Both the position numbers and the translations under genes were made by a program. The notes beneath the pieces are model-generated. The model was not told where the DNA came from. It did no database searches and saw nothing but the letters and a program-made list of their open reading frames with translations. This document shows positions 18,259-38,121 of a stretch of DNA of 64,000 nt, in pieces (within the stretch, counting starts at the first letter, position 1; the number at the start of each line of letters is the position of its first letter). This DNA comes from Bacteroidota bacterium. GTDB lineage: Bacteria > Bacteroidota > Bacteroidia > UKL13-3. The DNA lies in the NCBI GenBank assembly GCA_027482225.1, contig JAIXWD010000007.1, positions 372,001-436,000 on the forward strand. The letters are read 5' to 3'.

Positions 18259-18645
18259 TTAAAGTTTATGGACATTTAAGCGATTTAAAATCTCATCAAA
18301 TTTAGCTGGGAATACCCCTCTTAACAAAACCAACATTTCTTGCCTTTCAACCTGATCCATATTCTTCAAAGAAGCGATAAACTCATCCCACGAATTGATA
18401 CGATAATTAAATGATTTTAAAGATGTCAAAAGAATAATTTGAACGGAATTACAATTTATTGCGTGACAAATACTTTGGAATCTATTAAAATCTAATTTTT
18501 TCAATTTGCCAGATTCAAAACGAGAGTAAGTAGTTTTGTCTTTATAACCAGCTTGTTTAGCGACCCAATCTTGGCTGTAATTTCTAAGTTCTCTAATTAA
18601 TTTGACAGTCTTGCCAATTTGTTGACTAGTTAATGCGTTATTCAT
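18259..18645 (-). CDS. XRE-family helix-turn-helix regulator
   Basis: 128 residues. The N-terminal HTH runs GKTVKLIRELRNYSQDWVA, AGYKDKTTYSRFESGKLKK, with the usual second-helix S-R-F-E-S-G recognition stretch. The C-terminal ~55 residues are helical and charged, with no recognised ligand domain. It is divergent from the small exported protein gene at 18859. Two tandem 17-bp dyads (18681-18718) lie between them, so it probably represses itself and the divergent operon. Confidence 0.85.
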   Translation of the reverse strand: MNNALTSQQIGKTVKLIRELRNYSQDWVAKQAGYKDKTTYSRFESGKLKKLDFNRFQSICHAINCNSVQIILLTSLKSFNYRINSWDEFIASLKNMDQVERQEMLVLLRGVFPAKFDEILNRLNVHKL

Positions 18646-18858: not shown

Positions 18859-19248
18859 ATGAAAACCATTAATTTATCTTTATCAGTTATGCTTTTGCTT
18901 TTTGCATTTAATGTTCATGCAAAAGAAAAAATCGTTATCAAAAAGTTAGGTGGCGGACCAAAAGGTTACAAAAATGTAAAAGAACTCCATTCAGGTGGCA
19001 CACATAAACTTGAATGCAGTGATCCAGGATTCGCTCAATGTAATTGGATGGAGGGGTTTTCCGTTGTAACTAGTTCACAATTACTGGCAATCGAGAAAAT
19101 TGTTGATGAAAGAATTGGTGAAAAAGATTATTCGGGGAAAGGGAATTTAGCTGGCACCAAACTTTGGTTTTGCTGGGTTTATGATGCCTCTACAGGAACT
19201 ACTACATATTCTGTTACTGAAGATGCAGCCGACTGTAATTTTCAGTAA
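18859..19248 (+). CDS. Small exported protein with Cx3Gx3C motif (locus A)
   Basis: 129 residues. The signal peptide ends at FNVHAK. The mature part starts with a basic, glycine-rich stretch (KKLGGGPKGYKNV), then CSDPGFAQC, a Cys-x3-Gly-x3-Cys motif shared with the proteins at 34781 and 35235. The end, LWFCWVYDASTG, matches their FKWYQINGN and LVWYIDSNGK. Two further cysteines lie near the C-terminus. The leader's FNVxA wording recalls the NVEALA type of small exported Bacteroidota proteins; that link is from memory and unverified. Its stop overlaps the next gene's ATG (TAATG), so the two are translationally coupled. Confidence 0.75.
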   Translation: MKTINLSLSVMLLLFAFNVHAKEKIVIKKLGGGPKGYKNVKELHSGGTHKLECSDPGFAQCNWMEGFSVVTSSQLLAIEKIVDERIGEKDYSGKGNLAGTKLWFCWVYDASTGTTTYSVTEDAADCNFQ

Positions 19249-20891
19249 TGAACATGTATAATTCAAGTTTAATTCTAAAATCAGCATCAGTACTACTGAT
19301 GCTGATTTACACCATACCCGTTATTGCGCAGCACCGATATGATATCCTGCTAAAAAAGAGAAGTATTTTAAAGAATGACGAATTTGAGGATTGCAATGCT
19401 AAAATTCTCATATCCGATAACAAATTGATCCTATTCTCTGAACAAAAATCGCCAAAGAGAAGTTCAAATCAATTATACGAAGTTAACTACCCTGCATATG
19501 ATCTTAAAACCGGCAGAAAAACACAAATCAAAGTTAGAATTAATGAGCCTTTATTTGAGTACATAAATATTGGAAATTTGGAAACACATATTTGTGATAA
19601 TTTTATCCTTCTATGTATAAATGAATATGCCATACAAAATCTCGACTATGCTAAAACCAAGCTTATAATACTTAAAAAAACAGATGAAACAACATACACT
19701 GAAATTAACCATATAGATAACTTTCAACAATACGAAGGTGATATCTATCAAATAAGCCCGAGCAGGATTCTGTTTTATAAAAACAATGATTATCACCCAT
19801 TAGATGATTCCATTCCAACCATTACAAGTATTTATAATGTTGAATCAGGCACATTCGAGAAAAACCAGGTTGAAAATTTTGACGGGATTTATGTTACAAA
19901 CCTTGTTGGACAATTAGTTGCAGCAAAAAATAAAACCATATATAGAGCATATCCTACAAAAAACATGGTTACTGTTTCTGATGAGTCACTAAATACAACA
20001 GATACCGTATTTGTTCCTATCAGAAAGAACTACACCCAACTTTTTAACAAAATTGATTCGCTGAAACAAGTATATACATCAAAAAAAGAATTCATATACG
20101 CTTCCAAAAAAATTGACAAGTATATTGAAAGGATTGAAAGTATATATTTACTGAGTACCAATGAGCTTGGTATAATTATTAAACCTGAAAACGTTGATGA
20201 CTTTGAAACGCGCATGCTACTTGTATATGACCTTACCAATAAAAAGTTCACTAACACGATCCAACTTCATTATGATTATTCAGGGAGCAAAAGAATCATT
20301 TCAGAGCCAAACTTTACTTATAATGGCAATGCCTTACTTTTTAGCGAAGATATAAATGCTATAGTATATACCACAACTAACAATTACATTAAAAATGGCA
20401 AACTTAAAGGTAGTAAAAATTATTTCATACATGTTATGAAATTTAATCAAGGAACATCACAAACAGAGCATCAAAAGATAAATTCACACCAACAATTTGC
20501 ATCATATACAGACTCCAACCTAACTCTATTTAGTCTTAAAGGAGACACCGCAAGCTTATCACAATTACTTGCGAATAAGAGTGCTATTTTGGTAAAGAAT
20601 AAAAAAAACTGTTCCCCGTGTTTTAAAAAAGCCTACCAACTAATTAAGAAAAATTATAGCAATTATGATATATTCTATGTTTGTGAATATTCAGGCTTGC
20701 CACTTAATCATCTTATTGAAGAAAAAAACATTAAAAAGTCACTAAAAGTAAAAAATATTTATTACTTCAAAGCAGAGTATGAACAGAGCAAAGGATTACT
20801 AAATCTAAAAAATACACCTACCCCTTTTATATTAAGTTCAGATGATAAAACAATAAATTATGTGCCATTGGATTTAATAATGGAGGAGTGA
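19248..20891 (+). CDS. Exported propeller-like protein fused to a thioredoxin-like module
   Basis: 547 residues with a signal peptide (hydrophobic core VLLMLIYTIPVIA, cut near QHRYD). About 400 residues of beta-rich sequence follow, with repeating strand-turn units (ILISDNKLILFSE, LVYDLTNKKFTNTI) that suggest a beta-propeller. The last ~130 residues look thioredoxin-like: LANKSAILVKNKKN, CSPC near residue 458, and TPTPFIL at a cis-Pro position. The equivalent at 35740-37474 is split into two genes. It overlaps the small cysteine-motif gene by one base. A role in handling that protein's thiols is inferred from context only. Confidence 0.72.
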   Translation: MNMYNSSLILKSASVLLMLIYTIPVIAQHRYDILLKKRSILKNDEFEDCNAKILISDNKLILFSEQKSPKRSSNQLYEVNYPAYDLKTGRKTQIKVRINEPLFEYINIGNLETHICDNFILLCINEYAIQNLDYAKTKLIILKKTDETTYTEINHIDNFQQYEGDIYQISPSRILFYKNNDYHPLDDSIPTITSIYNVESGTFEKNQVENFDGIYVTNLVGQLVAAKNKTIYRAYPTKNMVTVSDESLNTTDTVFVPIRKNYTQLFNKIDSLKQVYTSKKEFIYASKKIDKYIERIESIYLLSTNELGIIIKPENVDDFETRMLLVYDLTNKKFTNTIQLHYDYSGSKRIISEPNFTYNGNALLFSEDINAIVYTTTNNYIKNGKLKGSKNYFIHVMKFNQGTSQTEHQKINSHQQFASYTDSNLTLFSLKGDTASLSQLLANKSAILVKNKKNCSPCFKKAYQLIKKNYSNYDIFYVCEYSGLPLNHLIEEKNIKKSLKVKNIYYFKAEYEQSKGLLNLKNTPTPFILSSDDKTINYVPLDLIMEE

Positions 20892-20997: not shown

Positions 20998-21630
20998 ATG
21001 AAACATCTATCAATCATTTTAATTTTTGTTGTAACAGGAGTTATGGCAAATGCACAAATCAAATACAACCAAGTTGGTCAATTAGGCGAATTTAAGTCTG
21101 ATTGGGTGTTGGTTGAACTTGATAACAAACTCGGATTCATTGATGAAAACGGAGAAGAAATCGTTAAACCTATCTACAAAAAGATTGGCCAATTCGGTGA
21201 ATTAAAATCGGATTGGGCATTAGTAAATCAAGACAACAAACTTGGTTTTATTAATGACAAAGGAGAAGAAGTCATCAAACCAACGTATGATAAGATTGGT
21301 CAATTTGGTGAGTTTAAATCTGATTGGGCTCTAATAGAACTGGACAACAAACTGGGTTTTATTAATGACAAAGGAGAAGAAGTCATCAAACCAACGTATG
21401 ATAAGATTGGTCAATTTGGTGAGGTAAAATCTGATTGGGCTTTGGTGCAACTTGGCAACAAACTGGGTTTTATTAATGATAAAGGGGAAGAAGTGATTAA
21501 ACCCAAGTATGATAAAATTGGTCAATTTGGTGAGGTAAAATCTGAATGGGCTTCAGTAAAATTGAATGACAAAGTTGGCTTTATCAACGACAAAGGAAAA
21601 GAGATGATTAAATCTAATCAAAAGCCATAA
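20998..21630 (+). CDS. Exported WG-repeat protein
   Basis: 210 residues: a signal peptide (MKHLSIILIFVVTGVMANAQ) and then five repeats of ~37 residues with the pattern YDKIGQFGEFKSDWALI, xNKLGFINDKGEEVIKP. This is the WG/KWG repeat fold found in many Bacteroidota surface proteins. The middle repeats are nearly identical at DNA level with a 111-base period (21241-21520), so copy number may vary by slippage or recombination. It lies 106 bases downstream of the propeller-thioredoxin gene across AT-rich sequence; membership of that operon is possible but not shown. Confidence 0.88.
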   Translation: MKHLSIILIFVVTGVMANAQIKYNQVGQLGEFKSDWVLVELDNKLGFIDENGEEIVKPIYKKIGQFGELKSDWALVNQDNKLGFINDKGEEVIKPTYDKIGQFGEFKSDWALIELDNKLGFINDKGEEVIKPTYDKIGQFGEVKSDWALVQLGNKLGFINDKGEEVIKPKYDKIGQFGEVKSEWASVKLNDKVGFINDKGKEMIKSNQKP

Positions 21631-33801: not shown

Positions 33802-33888
33802 CCACCCCCACCAGGCATATTTAAATTATTATATAAAACAGTTTATTACCACATGAGGTAATTATTACACGTACACTGTGTTTGTTTG

Positions 33889-34236
33889 CTGCTGCCCACA
33901 TTACGGCTATATAAAAAGCAGGTAATTACACCTAAGGCCTTTCCAAAACAATACCATTTAAGCGCATTAATGGGTTTATAACTTGTGTACCCAAAAAAAA
34001 TAAAAAGTATTATTTTTATTTCAAAAAATATACTTATTTAGCTGTGCCAACTAATTATATATAATGAAAACAATACACACCCCCGCACAGCAAACACGCT
34101 CGATTTGCATTCCATTTACCAAACATTATTACATAACAATTAACCGTTTATAAGCGGTTAAACTATTACTATTTGTGGCCTAAGGAGCTAATATGCGAAA
34201 AGATAAGGAAATTGATGTTCGCATAGATTTAAGTTA
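33889..34236 (+). repeat. Long direct repeat, copy 1
   Basis: About 348 bases that match 37749-38095 with small differences. Shared blocks include ATTACGGCTAT, AATTACACCTAA, CTTTCCAAAACA, an almost identical ~80-base core around TTAGCTGTGCCAACTAATTA and CACACCCCCGCACAGCAAAC, the 22-base palindrome TTAACCGTTTATAAGCGGTT(AA) at 34140-34161, and the end TTCGCATAGATTTAAGTTA. It ends 22 bases before the LytTR gene. Confidence 0.8.
34140..34161. repeat. 22-bp palindrome, copy 1
   Basis: TTAACCG and CGGTTAA arms around TTTATAAG. The same 22 bases occur at 40621-40642, with one difference at 37999-38020, and degenerate at 27418-27439. Confidence 0.65.
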
Positions 34237-34258: not shown

Positions 34259-34645
34259 ATGAAAAATATTGTAATTGACGAAAAATTTAAGACCCCGGAA
34301 TTTTATACATTGGCTAAACTCCCAGTCTCTGCCGGTAAAGATATTATTTTGATTCCACTTTCCTCAATTATCTATATTGAGTCAGATGGTAGTTATTCAA
34401 AAATATACAATATTGAAAACGAAAATTTTTTCCATACGTGCAAAAACATCGGTCAATACGAAAAAAGTCTTCCACCTCATAGTTTTGTGAGAATTCACAG
34501 CAAATTCCTTGTAAATGTAACCTATATAAAAAATATAGTTAGGGAAAGTCACTGGAAAGTGGGTTTAATAAATCAAATACAGTTAAATGTCTCTGATGAG
34601 AAAAAGGAAATATTACTTCAAAAACTAGGATTAAATTACGAATGA
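34259..34645 (+). CDS. LytTR DNA-binding regulator without receiver domain
   Basis: 128 residues made up almost entirely of a LytTR domain (about 25-125): IPLSSIIYIESDGSYSKIY, then FVRIHSKFLVNVTYIKNI, both strongly diagnostic. There is no response-regulator receiver domain, so control is not by a standard phosphorelay. It lies just after direct repeat copy 1 and 135 bases before the two small exported proteins, in the same orientation, and is the likely regulator of locus B. Confidence 0.88.
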   Translation: MKNIVIDEKFKTPEFYTLAKLPVSAGKDIILIPLSSIIYIESDGSYSKIYNIENENFFHTCKNIGQYEKSLPPHSFVRIHSKFLVNVTYIKNIVRESHWKVGLINQIQLNVSDEKKEILLQKLGLNYE

Positions 34646-34780: not shown

Positions 34781-35227
34781 ATGAAAAAAATCAAACTATT
34801 AATGTTAACTGTTACAGTATTAACAGTTAATTGTGTTTATGCAACAAAAGTAATAAAACACCGTGACCATTGGGGTATTTGGGGTGGTTATGAACAAGTA
34901 ACAGAAGTCACAGATGAAACAGCCGATGGTAAGGTTATCGATGTATGGTGTAGAGGAAATGGTGAAATGAAATGTAAAAGCGACATTGCAGCAAATGGAA
35001 TTCTAGTACATGACAATGGTCTTGAACTAACCAATATGGAATTAGACTTTATTGAATATTTACACCAATTCGCTGACTCAAATGGAAGTAATGGTTCATC
35101 TCAAGGACACAAAGAAGAGTACATTACTATTGGGTACCCTGATGGAACAACTATTTCTCATCTATTCATTTTGGTTTGGTATATTGATTCTAATGGAAAA
35201 TTCATTTCATCTGTAACATTCAATTAA
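34781..35227 (+). CDS. Small exported protein with Cx3Gx3C motif (locus B, first)
   Basis: 148 residues. Signal peptide to about VNCVYA. The mature start TKVIKHRDHWGIWGGYEQV is basic and glycine-rich, followed by CRGNGEMKC, the Cys-x3-Gly-x3-Cys motif shared with 18859 and 35235. The C-terminal half has ITIGYPDGT and LVWYIDSNGK, matching VVVNPDGN and FKWYQINGN in the next gene. It is separated from that gene by 7 bases. The function is unknown; a family of exported peptides or adhesin-like small proteins is inferred. Confidence 0.75.
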   Translation: MKKIKLLMLTVTVLTVNCVYATKVIKHRDHWGIWGGYEQVTEVTDETADGKVIDVWCRGNGEMKCKSDIAANGILVHDNGLELTNMELDFIEYLHQFADSNGSNGSSQGHKEEYITIGYPDGTTISHLFILVWYIDSNGKFISSVTFN

Positions 35228-35234
35228 TAACAAT

Positions 35235-35690
35235 ATGAAAAAAATATTTATCATACTGCTACTTACCACCATTGGGTTTAATGTAGAAGCTAAGTTTACG
35301 AAAATTTACAGAGAAAAAGTTGGCGGAAATAAAACAAACAAATTTGAAACGGTAGATAGAACTGTTAATGAAGGAAGTGAAGTAATATCAGTATATATTA
35401 ACTGCACTAACCCAGGTGATAAAGACTGTCCAACAGCCAAACCTTTAGCAACACCTGATCCTAATGTTGGTGAAGTTAACATAGACCCTGCAATTGCAGA
35501 GTATCTTGAAACCATTTATTTACAAATAGATAATTCATTTGATAATGGTGTAAATAACGGTGAAGAAATGAGAACAATAGTTGTTGTTAACCCAGATGGC
35601 AATGAATCTAGATACACTATTAAATTCAAATGGTATCAAATAAATGGCAACATTCAGAAATCTGAAATTGAAATATCAGACCATTTTTAA
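35235..35690 (+). CDS. Small exported protein with Cx3Gx3C motif (locus B, second)
   Basis: 151 residues. The leader reads MKKIFIILLLTTIGFNVEAK; its FNVEA ending resembles the NVEALA-type leader from memory. The mature part has KVGGNKTNKFETV, then CTNPGDKDC (Cx3Gx3C), a Pro/Ala-rich linker and the shared PDGN...FKWYQINGN end. It is paralogous to 34781 and 18859 by motif order and spacing. A strong hairpin (35698-35727) follows before the large exported protein gene and may keep its transcript more abundant than what lies downstream. Confidence 0.75.
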   Translation: MKKIFIILLLTTIGFNVEAKFTKIYREKVGGNKTNKFETVDRTVNEGSEVISVYINCTNPGDKDCPTAKPLATPDPNVGEVNIDPAIAEYLETIYLQIDNSFDNGVNNGEEMRTIVVVNPDGNESRYTIKFKWYQINGNIQKSEIEISDHF

Positions 35691-35697
35691 AATTAAT

Positions 35698-35727
35698 AAG
35701 AAGGTTTGGCTAACACCAAACCTTCTT
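35698..35727 (+). promoter_or_regulatory. Intercistronic hairpin
   Basis: AAGAAGGTTTGG (35698-35709) and CCAAACCTTCTT (35716-35727) are perfect 12-bp arms with a 6-base loop. It lies between the stop at 35690 and the ATG at 35740 and has no T run after it, so it fits an mRNA-stabilising or partial-attenuation structure better than a full terminator. Confidence 0.65.
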
Positions 35728-35739
35728 AAAACATACACA

Positions 35740-36936
35740 ATGAAATATCTTTTTTATTTTGCAATTTCGCTTTACTTTCAAAATATTGTCAGCTCACAAA
35801 CCATTCAGGAAAAGTTTAAATTAGACACTTTAATATTCCTTAACCATAAAAACATCACAATTGAAAAAATAAGAAAAGATGCAATAATATCATCAACAGA
35901 TAAATACATTCATATAGCATTTTCAAACAATGTATTTGGTAACGACACAAACTATATTATTTCTATAAATAAAAGTAGCTATAAGGTTTCATATTGGTCG
36001 TTTTGCTTGCCTAAAGAAATGAAAACAAGAACTTTAGATGCAATTTATTCATTCTCTACAAATGATTCAGTTTTCGCTTTAGGTTTTTATCAATCAATAC
36101 TAGTGTTAACAAAAAATAGTGAAAATCAACTTAGAGTTATAAAATTGATTGAATTAGAGCAATCATGTGCTTATTTAAAAGTTATAGATAATTTAGTGTT
36201 TGCTGGAAATATTTACAAAAAGAAAGATGTTGCGCAGAGTGCTGTGATTTATAAGTATGGTATTAATGAGCAATACAAAGAAGTAGACAGGTTCACCTTT
36301 AATTATCCATGTATTGAATTTTCATATTTTAGCCCAAACCATTGGATAGAAATTGACAAAGAAAACATATTTATAGCTCAAACATGTAACTATTCAATTG
36401 ACATTTATAATCATTCATTCAAAAAGAAAGGAGTTATCGAAAGTAAAAAAAAATCTTGGGTGGAAATAGATAAAAGTATTCTTAAAACTTTAAATCATCG
36501 AATAAATGCAACTCAACCAGTTCAAATGATTGACACTTTGTCAATTTACAATGACCGATTTATTAGTAGAGTAACTGGAATATGGAAATTTAATGATACT
36601 ATTCTTTTTATTGGTTGGTTCAAATTCGATTCAACCCTAAACAAAACAAGGAAACATATTGACGTATATAATTTAACTAGCAATAGCTTCCTTGAAGAAA
36701 ACTTGTACGACCCTAGTATGTTTCGTAGAGACTCAGCAATAGCAACCAAAGACTTTTATCCAATTATGTATTGGAACTATAATTTAGATATATCTAACAG
36801 CAATATAACTACACTTAGAAATTATGCAGAAATAGATTATATTAATAATCCTTGGAAAATAATATATGAAAACGAAAAGAAGTTTTTCATTAAAAATAAT
36901 CCCATTCCAACCCTTTTTATATATGAGCAAAAGTAG
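35740..36936 (+). CDS. Exported propeller-like protein (locus B)
   Basis: 398 residues from the ATG at 35740, which begins a clean signal peptide (MKYLFYFAISLYFQNIVSSQ); the frame is open further upstream but runs through the previous gene's end. The body is beta-rich with repeated strand pairs and resembles the first ~400 residues of the protein at 19248 in layout, for example HIDVYNLTSNSF against LLVYDLTNKKF. The thioredoxin-like part that is fused there is here the next gene, overlapping by 14 bases. Base composition is clearly more AT-rich than in core genes. Confidence 0.68.
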   Translation: MKYLFYFAISLYFQNIVSSQTIQEKFKLDTLIFLNHKNITIEKIRKDAIISSTDKYIHIAFSNNVFGNDTNYIISINKSSYKVSYWSFCLPKEMKTRTLDAIYSFSTNDSVFALGFYQSILVLTKNSENQLRVIKLIELEQSCAYLKVIDNLVFAGNIYKKKDVAQSAVIYKYGINEQYKEVDRFTFNYPCIEFSYFSPNHWIEIDKENIFIAQTCNYSIDIYNHSFKKKGVIESKKKSWVEIDKSILKTLNHRINATQPVQMIDTLSIYNDRFISRVTGIWKFNDTILFIGWFKFDSTLNKTRKHIDVYNLTSNSFLEENLYDPSMFRRDSAIATKDFYPIMYWNYNLDISNSNITTLRNYAEIDYINNPWKIIYENEKKFFIKNNPIPTLFIYEQK

Positions 36937-37474
36937 TATTCTAATGTTACTTATTTTTGTTAATGTATTACCATCGTTTGCACAAACTGTGGACTTAAGT
37001 AACAAATATGTTAAAACCATAGAAGGCGATAGTGTGCAATTACTTAAATTAAACAATAAAAAATCAATTACAATTATCGCAAATACATTATCCTGTTCAG
37101 GATGTTTAAATAATTTAATTGCTTTTCTTGATTCATTATCAAATCAACACACTTTAAAAGACGTTAACTTAAACATTATTATATGTATTGGTGAAGACGT
37201 GCTTCAGCAAAGACAACAAATTATTTTTTTTAAAAAGAAGTCTAAATTAATTAATGTATATTTTGAGAACATTAATTACGATACACACCTTAGTTATAGA
37301 AAACCTGATTACGGAATTTTGAAAGATTTTAATGCGACAGGTAATCCAATATTACTACTAATAAATAATACGCTGATAACATATGAATTGATTAACTATA
37401 ACAGTCTGTTTAATGAAATAAATGTAAGCGATTTAGCTCGCAAGAAGATTATCAACTTCCTCTGTTCACGCTGA
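36923..37474 (+). CDS. Exported thioredoxin-like protein (locus B)
   Basis: 183 residues from the ATG at 36923 (MSKSSILMLLIFVNVLPSFAQ, a signal peptide); an earlier ATG at 36866 would overlap the previous gene by 71 bases. The pattern GDSVQLLKLNNKKSITIIANTLSC-SGC places a CSGC active-site-like motif at the end of a beta strand, and ATGNPILLL may be the cis-Pro strand. It parallels GDTASLSQLLANKSAILV...CSPC in the fused protein at 19248. Translationally coupled to the upstream gene. Probably acts on thiols in the periplasm, perhaps of the Cx3Gx3C proteins. Confidence 0.72.
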   Translation: MSKSSILMLLIFVNVLPSFAQTVDLSNKYVKTIEGDSVQLLKLNNKKSITIIANTLSCSGCLNNLIAFLDSLSNQHTLKDVNLNIIICIGEDVLQQRQQIIFFKKKSKLINVYFENINYDTHLSYRKPDYGILKDFNATGNPILLLINNTLITYELINYNSLFNEINVSDLARKKIINFLCSR

Positions 37475-37748
37475 CGTGCCGTCAGTGTGCTGCAAAACAT
37501 CTTAACAAATTAGCTTAAAATTGATGCGTTAATTTATATTAACTTTAACAGCTAAATATAAGCTACATACTTATTTAGTTTTATATTTGGTTGAATATAA
37601 ATTTTATAAAAACAGATGATGTTAGGTTTCAAATTTAACATCAAGCAACAGATGAGTTTGTATCTCTACATTAGAGTATATAACTACACACGGACGGAAC
37701 GTCCTTGAACTGGCGGAGTTATTGTTATAACTTTAACATATTTATAAA
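37475..37748. other. Intergenic region after locus B
   Basis: Begins with an imperfect palindrome CGCTGACGTGCCGTCAGTGTG near 37478-37498, REP-like, which may terminate locus B. At 37692-37704 GGACG-gaa-CGTCC forms a small hairpin within the left arm of the inverted repeat at 37693-38121, followed by GAACTGGCGG (37707-37716), a degenerate form of the cassette-end word AAATTGGCGG. Confidence 0.5.
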
Positions 37749-38121
37749 CTGCTGCCAACATTACGGCTATTAAAAAAGCAGGCAATTACACCTAAAGCCT
37801 TTCCAAAACAAATCCATTTAAGCGCATTTAGGGTTTGAGTCTTGTACACCCTAAAAAATTAAAAAATATTATTTTTATTTCAAAAAATATACTTATTTAG
37901 CTGTGCCAACTAATTATATATGATGAAAACAATACACACCCCCGCACAGCAAACACGCTCGTCTTGCATAACATTTACCAAACTTTATTACATAACAATT
38001 AACCGTTTATAAGCGGATAAACCCGCGCTATTTAAAGACTATGGCCATGCTGTGGGTAATGGAGAAGGAATTGGGGTTCGCATAGATTTAAGTTATGCGT
38101 CATGTTCAAGGACGATCCGTC
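37693..38121. repeat. Inverted-repeat-bounded 429-bp block
   Basis: The left arm 37693-37710 (GACGGAACGTCCTTGAAC) and the right arm 38104-38121 (GTTCAAGGACGATCCGTC) are inverted with 17 of 18 bases matching. They enclose direct repeat copy 2 and no gene. Could be a small non-autonomous element or a folded recombination site; no target duplication is obvious. Confidence 0.6.
37749..38095 (+). repeat. Long direct repeat, copy 2
   Basis: Matches 33889-34236 over its whole length with small changes, including the ~80-base core and a 22-base palindrome with one changed base at 37999-38020. The pair, 3860 bases apart in the same orientation, brackets locus B. It ends 55 bases before the gene at 38151. 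Confidence 0.8.

Follow-up and report, generated by a model that had tools for sequence, protein, structure and literature searches.

The locus studied here raises the question of whether small exported proteins that share a Cys-x3-Gly-x3-Cys motif form a functional unit with the genes beside them and, if so, what this unit does. The window, i.e. the whole stretch of 64,000 nucleotides of a Bacteroidota bacterium that was analysed, carries such genes at two distant sites. A sequence-only reading had recognised three of them (S), each set being linked to a large exported beta-rich protein (P) and a thioredoxin-like module (T), and had proposed exported peptides served by a dedicated thiol partner. 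The genes concerned and the features around them are as follows.

18259..18645, minus strand: XRE-type helix-turn-helix regulator (HTH_3, E 4e-6), divergent from the first cassette, which it may control
18859..19248, plus strand: S gene of the single-copy type, 129 aa, CSDPGFAQC
19248..20891, plus strand: P-T fusion, with an exported beta-propeller (about residues 28-405) followed by a C-terminal thioredoxin-like module (CSPC)
33858..34236, plus strand: left member of a pair of imperfect direct repeats that flank the second cassette
34259..34645, plus strand: LytTR-domain regulator (LytTR, E 3e-16), 136 bp ahead of the second cassette and, from this position, its putative regulator
34781..35227, plus strand: S gene, no. 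1 of a tandem pair, 148 aa, CRGNGEMKC
35235..35690, plus strand: S gene, no. 2 of the tandem pair, 151 aa, CTNPGDKDC
35740..36936, plus strand: P gene, encoding an exported, beta-rich, propeller-family protein of 398 aa, homologous with the P parts at other loci
36923..37474, plus strand: T gene, encoding an exported thioredoxin-like protein with CSGC and the cis-Pro position
37718..38095, plus strand: right member of this repeat pair, on the other side of the second cassette

At each of the two sites, neighbouring cassette genes abut or overlap. The Sec-type leader, the Gly-rich basic stretch and the aromatic C-terminal segment first read from the three small ORFs (18859, 34781 and 35235) are all present, as are, at both sites, the exported beta-rich protein and its CxxC thioredoxin-like partner, either as separate genes or as one ORF. 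The start of the large protein, initially placed at 35644, had to be corrected to 35740; that of the thioredoxin-like ORF is probably 36923. Directly downstream of the P-T fusion lies a gene encoding a WG-repeat exported protein (20998-21630), which is also found in the related genome G006 (L005 558-1310; G and L numbers designate genomes and loci).

The two S proteins of the tandem pair share only 23-24% identity with the first one (18859), and the second matches the third with an E value of 0.002. These three sequences are too dissimilar pairwise to have settled by themselves whether they form a family, which the wider family does. A profile built from six sequences detected S proteins (E < 0.01) in 16 of the 64 genomes from the family to which the window belongs; members were also found in other families among 395 genomes of the class, and a phylum-wide search of 296 genomes added ten S proteins from nine genomes. 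Globally, 60 S proteins of about 120-165 aa were gathered over the Bacteroidota, with identities often as low as 15-25%. The spacing of C-x3-G-x3-C, on whose conservation among orthologues the initial proposal depended, is kept exactly in 55 of the 60, and in an alignment of 25 members no column is invariant apart from the three defining residues of this motif (Cys, Gly, Cys). A profile deprived of the motif columns still retrieves S proteins in taxa outside the training set, 17 of its 22 matches carrying the motif, which therefore belongs to the family and is not an artefact of the search. The exceptions are a clade with C-x5-C-x2-C (first copy of L092, L093 and L100), which has P but no T gene, a protein with one additional residue (L210), and a second S copy located after T (L206, 5686-6075), which is devoid of cysteines while the remaining domain is kept. 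In the C-x5-C-x2-C clade, the loss of T thus coincides with an altered cysteine motif. Two other profile matches, L103 and L104, owed their similarity to the leader only and were discarded.

S lies directly beside P, the genes mostly abutting or overlapping, in 42 of 46 S loci. Of the other four, L097 lies at the end of a contig, and in L089, L095 and L096 the place of P is taken by an exported ORF (365-457 aa) that goes undetected with the P profile. Reciprocally, a search of the class with the P profile alone returned 22 places, S adjoining P in 19 of them; the remaining ones are L215 and L216, which lack S, and one contig fragment. All ten S proteins added by the phylum-wide search are followed by P and then by a CxxC protein. 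Matches scattered without partner genes, which would have spoken against a unit, are thus not what was observed. In most loci T comes after P, also mostly as an abutting or overlapping gene, and variants of the order are known (P-T-S in L102, S-S-P-P-T in L048). However, six S-P pairs have no T beside them (L051, L052, L090, L093, L100 and the first pair of L092), three of which retain the canonical cysteines. P is therefore the core partner and T an accessory one. The functional unit that had been proposed thus stands, and is phylum-wide, whereas the near-obligate partner of S turns out to be P and not the thiol protein. The existence of the S-P-T cassette as a unit is near-certain. Further sets, in L042 (1874-3078 and 5462-7497) and L053 (925-2997), associate a small Cys-bearing lipoprotein or exported protein with a CxxC protein and include a propeller-like lipoprotein; they escape both the S and the P profile and are possibly other branches of the same kind.

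None of the three proteins gave anything convincing in PDB sequence searches, and neither S nor P has a family in Pfam, NCBIfam or PHROGs. The 19 aligned T proteins all display a CxxC motif and a proline, Pro143, at the putative cis-Pro loop position. The window T protein matches Redoxin with an E value of 0.0018, which is under the curated cut-off, and the iterated T profile also collects ordinary redoxins within the window. As this profile is unspecific, membership of T rests on position and motif (in L214, T was recognised by eye only). The window ORF 19248-20891 encodes P and T as a single polypeptide, as does G028 (L053). A contig search with this fusion matched one MAG, which is G006; there, the two parts are read as two overlapping frames (L055 1465-3199), by a frameshift or an assembly error.

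An iterated profile search shows that the P proteins constitute one homologous family. The model of the P-T fusion is of moderate confidence (pLDDT 65), its best part being around residues 140-340. This model suggests a propeller over residues 28-404, with Z scores up to 15.6. Foldseek matched it to 149 PDB chains at E <= 0.001 and, among the matches listed, nearly all are propellers. With Z 15.6 and an rmsd of 4.9 over 306 residues, the best VIA-align match is the Bacteroides vulgatus structure 3s9j, which belongs to DUF4221.

The term peptide understates what S appears to be. The mature second S protein (35235), modelled by AlphaFold2 from 45 alignment rows with a pLDDT of 91.5 and a pTM of 0.82, is predicted to be a compact folded domain with the strand order beta-beta-beta-alpha-beta-beta-beta. 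The model places the two cysteines, residues 38 and 46, on and at the end of the strand 31-45. The best PDB matches of this model (Foldseek E 0.04; VIA-align Z 6.0, PAS-like) are in the range of chance matches. A PAS fold was not assigned, as both programs returned only weak PAS-like and viral matches.

The constant linkage of S with P, the P-T fusions and the invariant cysteine pair of S together point to a three-part envelope cassette in which P docks S and T forms or reduces its disulfide, a reading that we place just on the probable side. S would be a small Sec-exported beta3-alpha-beta3 domain whose conserved chemistry is a cysteine pair around a glycine. The exported propeller would bind it as a specific partner, and T, a periplasmic enzyme of the thioredoxin family sitting with P, would make or break its disulfide. 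The redox and folding state of S would thereby be fixed until it acts, for which the periplasm or the cell exterior is the likeliest site. The two-way gene linkage and the CxxC and cis-Pro residues found in 19/19 T proteins fit this scheme, in which we infer the binding of S by P, the action of T on S, the redox direction and the final role of S. Several observations fit it less well. T is not always needed, judging from the six pairs without it, three of them with canonical cysteines, and the S copy of L206 has no motif cysteine at all. Furthermore, the two cysteines of the modelled S protein lie on and at the end of a single strand, the P-T model has the moderate confidence mentioned above, and neither linkage nor fusion proves that the proteins touch or which way electrons would pass.

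The propeller matches of P also bear on a handling of metals or cofactors, since siderophore- and B12-binding Bacteroides lipoproteins are among those found by Foldseek. The cysteine pair of S would then be a ligand of a metal (e.g. copper) or of haem, T, as a thioredoxin-like protein, would keep it reduced so that it can be loaded, and P would serve as a platform for binding or delivery, in the manner of the propeller lipoproteins XusB and BtuK1. There is an established precedent, as the reduction of ScoI by TlpA precedes its metallation (work cited in PMC6107167). However, these propeller matches are at fold level only, no conserved His or Met stands beside the cysteines in the alignment of 25 S members, and no transporter, oxidase or TonB receptor recurs in the cassette neighbourhoods, so that such a role appears unlikely.

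The genes adjoining the cassettes suggest another possibility, a cell-cell signalling in which S would be an exported signal and P its receptor or processing partner, while the products of adjoining genes (XRE, LytTR or response regulator) would control the signal or report it. The immediate upstream gene encodes a regulator in about 11 of 35 loci, belonging to several lineages, i.e. a divergent XRE protein, a response regulator, a LytTR protein or a sigma factor; a divergent XRE gene upstream of S is found, besides the window, in L041, L054, L055, L087, L088 and L091. The patchy distribution and the tandem divergent S paralogues would also suit signals. Most loci, however, are devoid of any regulator, no sensor kinase or transmembrane receptor is constant, and S is predicted to be a folded domain and not a short peptide. 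We consider signalling improbable.

The tandem paralogues are old. In a maximum-likelihood tree, 34781 groups with the first-position S of G099 (99/96 support) and 35235 with the second-position S of the same genome (100/99 support), and such position-specific grouping recurs in other genera. The tandem copies have thus been held in order since old duplications and, to judge from the tree, are two distinct lineages side by side that are probably functionally non-redundant. These position-specific lineages are consistent with the docking of S by P followed by the action of T.

The two direct repeats enclose the second cassette together with its LytTR gene (LytTR-S-S-P-T); they lie 3.86 kb apart and are 79-91% identical, including stretches of 265 nt (84%) and 119 nt (79%). 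Full copies of the repeat are found nowhere else in the genome, and its matches in close relatives are partial and more diverged. G002 and G006 carry the first cassette and lack the second. The repeats and this absence indicate that the second cassette is patchy and probably an acquired accessory. Its apparent insertion between long repeats, the patchy accessory occurrence, the presence of several cassettes in some genomes and the rapid divergence of S would also be expected in interbacterial antagonism or defence, where S would act as an effector outside the cell, with P (together with T) as its chaperone or immunity protein. We regard this as very unlikely: neither an export apparatus nor a toxin fold nor an immunity family was detected, no structure convincingly matches the S fold, a phage search gave no match to the second S and a plasmid search none to P.

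The remaining question is that of origin. The sequence FNVEA at the end of one leader had led to the guess that S is related to the NVEALA peptides, of which two gut Bacteroidales genomes encode 17 and 19. This leader motif is restricted to FNVEA (35235) and FNVHA (18859) and is unconserved across S, and PF14055 matches none of the three window S proteins at E <= 10 and none of the 25 S members at E <= 1. The guess nevertheless gains support from elsewhere. A Cys-Gly-Cys loop is present in ten of the 55 NVEALA peptides compared, in most cases as C-x-G-x-G-x3-C with a P behind it (e.g. CNGIGSLDCP, CIGEGTVDCP, CVGKGNIDCP); motifs of S include CAGNGYKACP, CTGMGYKKCP and CNGSGSNTCP. The gene order is also shared: L120 and L121 encode successively an NVEALA peptide, a TolB_like propeller and a thioredoxin lipoprotein with CTSC, the CTSC gene comes immediately after that of the peptide in L150, L153, L154 and L156, and gaps of 1-10 bp separate the motif-bearing peptides from the propeller and/or the CTSC thioredoxin lipoprotein. 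A CxxC thioredoxin is found near 7 of the 10 motif-bearing peptides and 2 of the 45 others (p about 2e-5), a result that is indicative only, being hand-scored on partly related genomes with three more regex matches in Cys-rich tails excluded. Finally, the S profile ranks the peptides of L120, L153, L154, L156 and L118 at the top of the 55 (E 2e-4 to 3e-3, in a small set) and hhalign gives a probability of 84% for S versus NVEALA; both scores include the leader and are weak on their own. The S-P-T cassette thus probably represents the NVEALA type of cassette in a larger version that spans the phylum, a distant branch lying outside the NVEALA family as defined.

For the propellers, likeness stops at the fold. 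A DUF4221 member adjoins the NVEALA peptide of L118, and the P model is closest to a protein of that family. Yet hhalign comparisons of P with the TolB_like, DUF5128 and DUF4221 sets give probabilities of 1-9%, which are not significant (the first two sets overlapped after iteration). This result, the failure of S to match PF14055 and the shorter length of most NVEALA peptides all leave room for convergence, in which two unrelated small secreted proteins would each have acquired a Cys-Gly-Cys loop next to unrelated propellers and thioredoxins. This alternative concerns descent only and is compatible with any mechanism. We consider it less likely than not, in the face of the near-identical motif C-x-G-x-G-x3-C-P, the common gene order with its short gaps, the top ranks of motif-bearing peptides in the S-profile search, the hhalign score (partly due to the leader) and the DUF4221-like fold of P. 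The motif and order shared with the NVEALA subset, together with the match of P to 3s9j, would also agree with a docking of S by P and a redox action of T. Literature searches found no open-access paper describing NVEALA loci or the S-P-T cassette. It is conceivable, although rather doubtful, that S-P-T is an undescribed phylum-wide system in which a propeller-thioredoxin pair of its own matures a new family of secreted domains, the NVEALA loci being its shortened Bacteroidales branch; if so, one mechanism would account for many unexplained loci of both gut and environmental Bacteroidota.

S, P and T have no curated model today, and this work supplies a family entry for them. The NVEALA peptide loci of gut Bacteroides are equally unexplained, and S-P-T is either their relative or a look-alike. 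A motif-defined relative of NVEALA, present across the phylum with steady partners and P-T fusions, would lead to concrete predictions about the binding pairs, the key cysteines and the enzyme acting on them.

Among known systems, the architecture of the P-T fusion recalls NHLRC2 and SOQ1, which also join a thioredoxin module and a propeller in one chain. In human NHLRC2, the thioredoxin domain packs against a six-bladed propeller, its cysteine motif lies in a cleft and protein ligands have been proposed (PMC6107167), a precedent for the proposed action of a propeller-borne thioredoxin on S. However, the thioredoxin of NHLRC2 is N-terminal with a CCINC motif and the protein has no conserved operon partner, whereas P-T opens with the propeller, has CxxC as its motif and is constantly accompanied by S. 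The fusion 19248-20891, which has no CC(I/V)NC and carries its thioredoxin module at the C-terminus, thus falls outside the NHLRC2 type. T resembles the periplasmic thioredoxins of the TlpA/ResA type by its CxxC, its invariant cis-Pro position and its export, but matches curated models below cut-off only and is bound to one gene context. The DUF4221 protein (PF13970, 3s9j), although the top structural match of P, shares 8% identity with it and no significant profile similarity. The closest parallel is provided by the NVEALA loci, which like S-P-T encode small exported proteins with cysteines, several of them frequently at one locus, with a propeller and/or a CxxC lipoprotein. Unlike S, however, the NVEALA peptides are mostly 70-110 aa long, have the NVEALA leader, match PF14055 and for the most part lack C-x3-G-x3-C, and the propellers and thioredoxins of their loci are lipoproteins, whereas the P proteins of S cassettes mostly are not.
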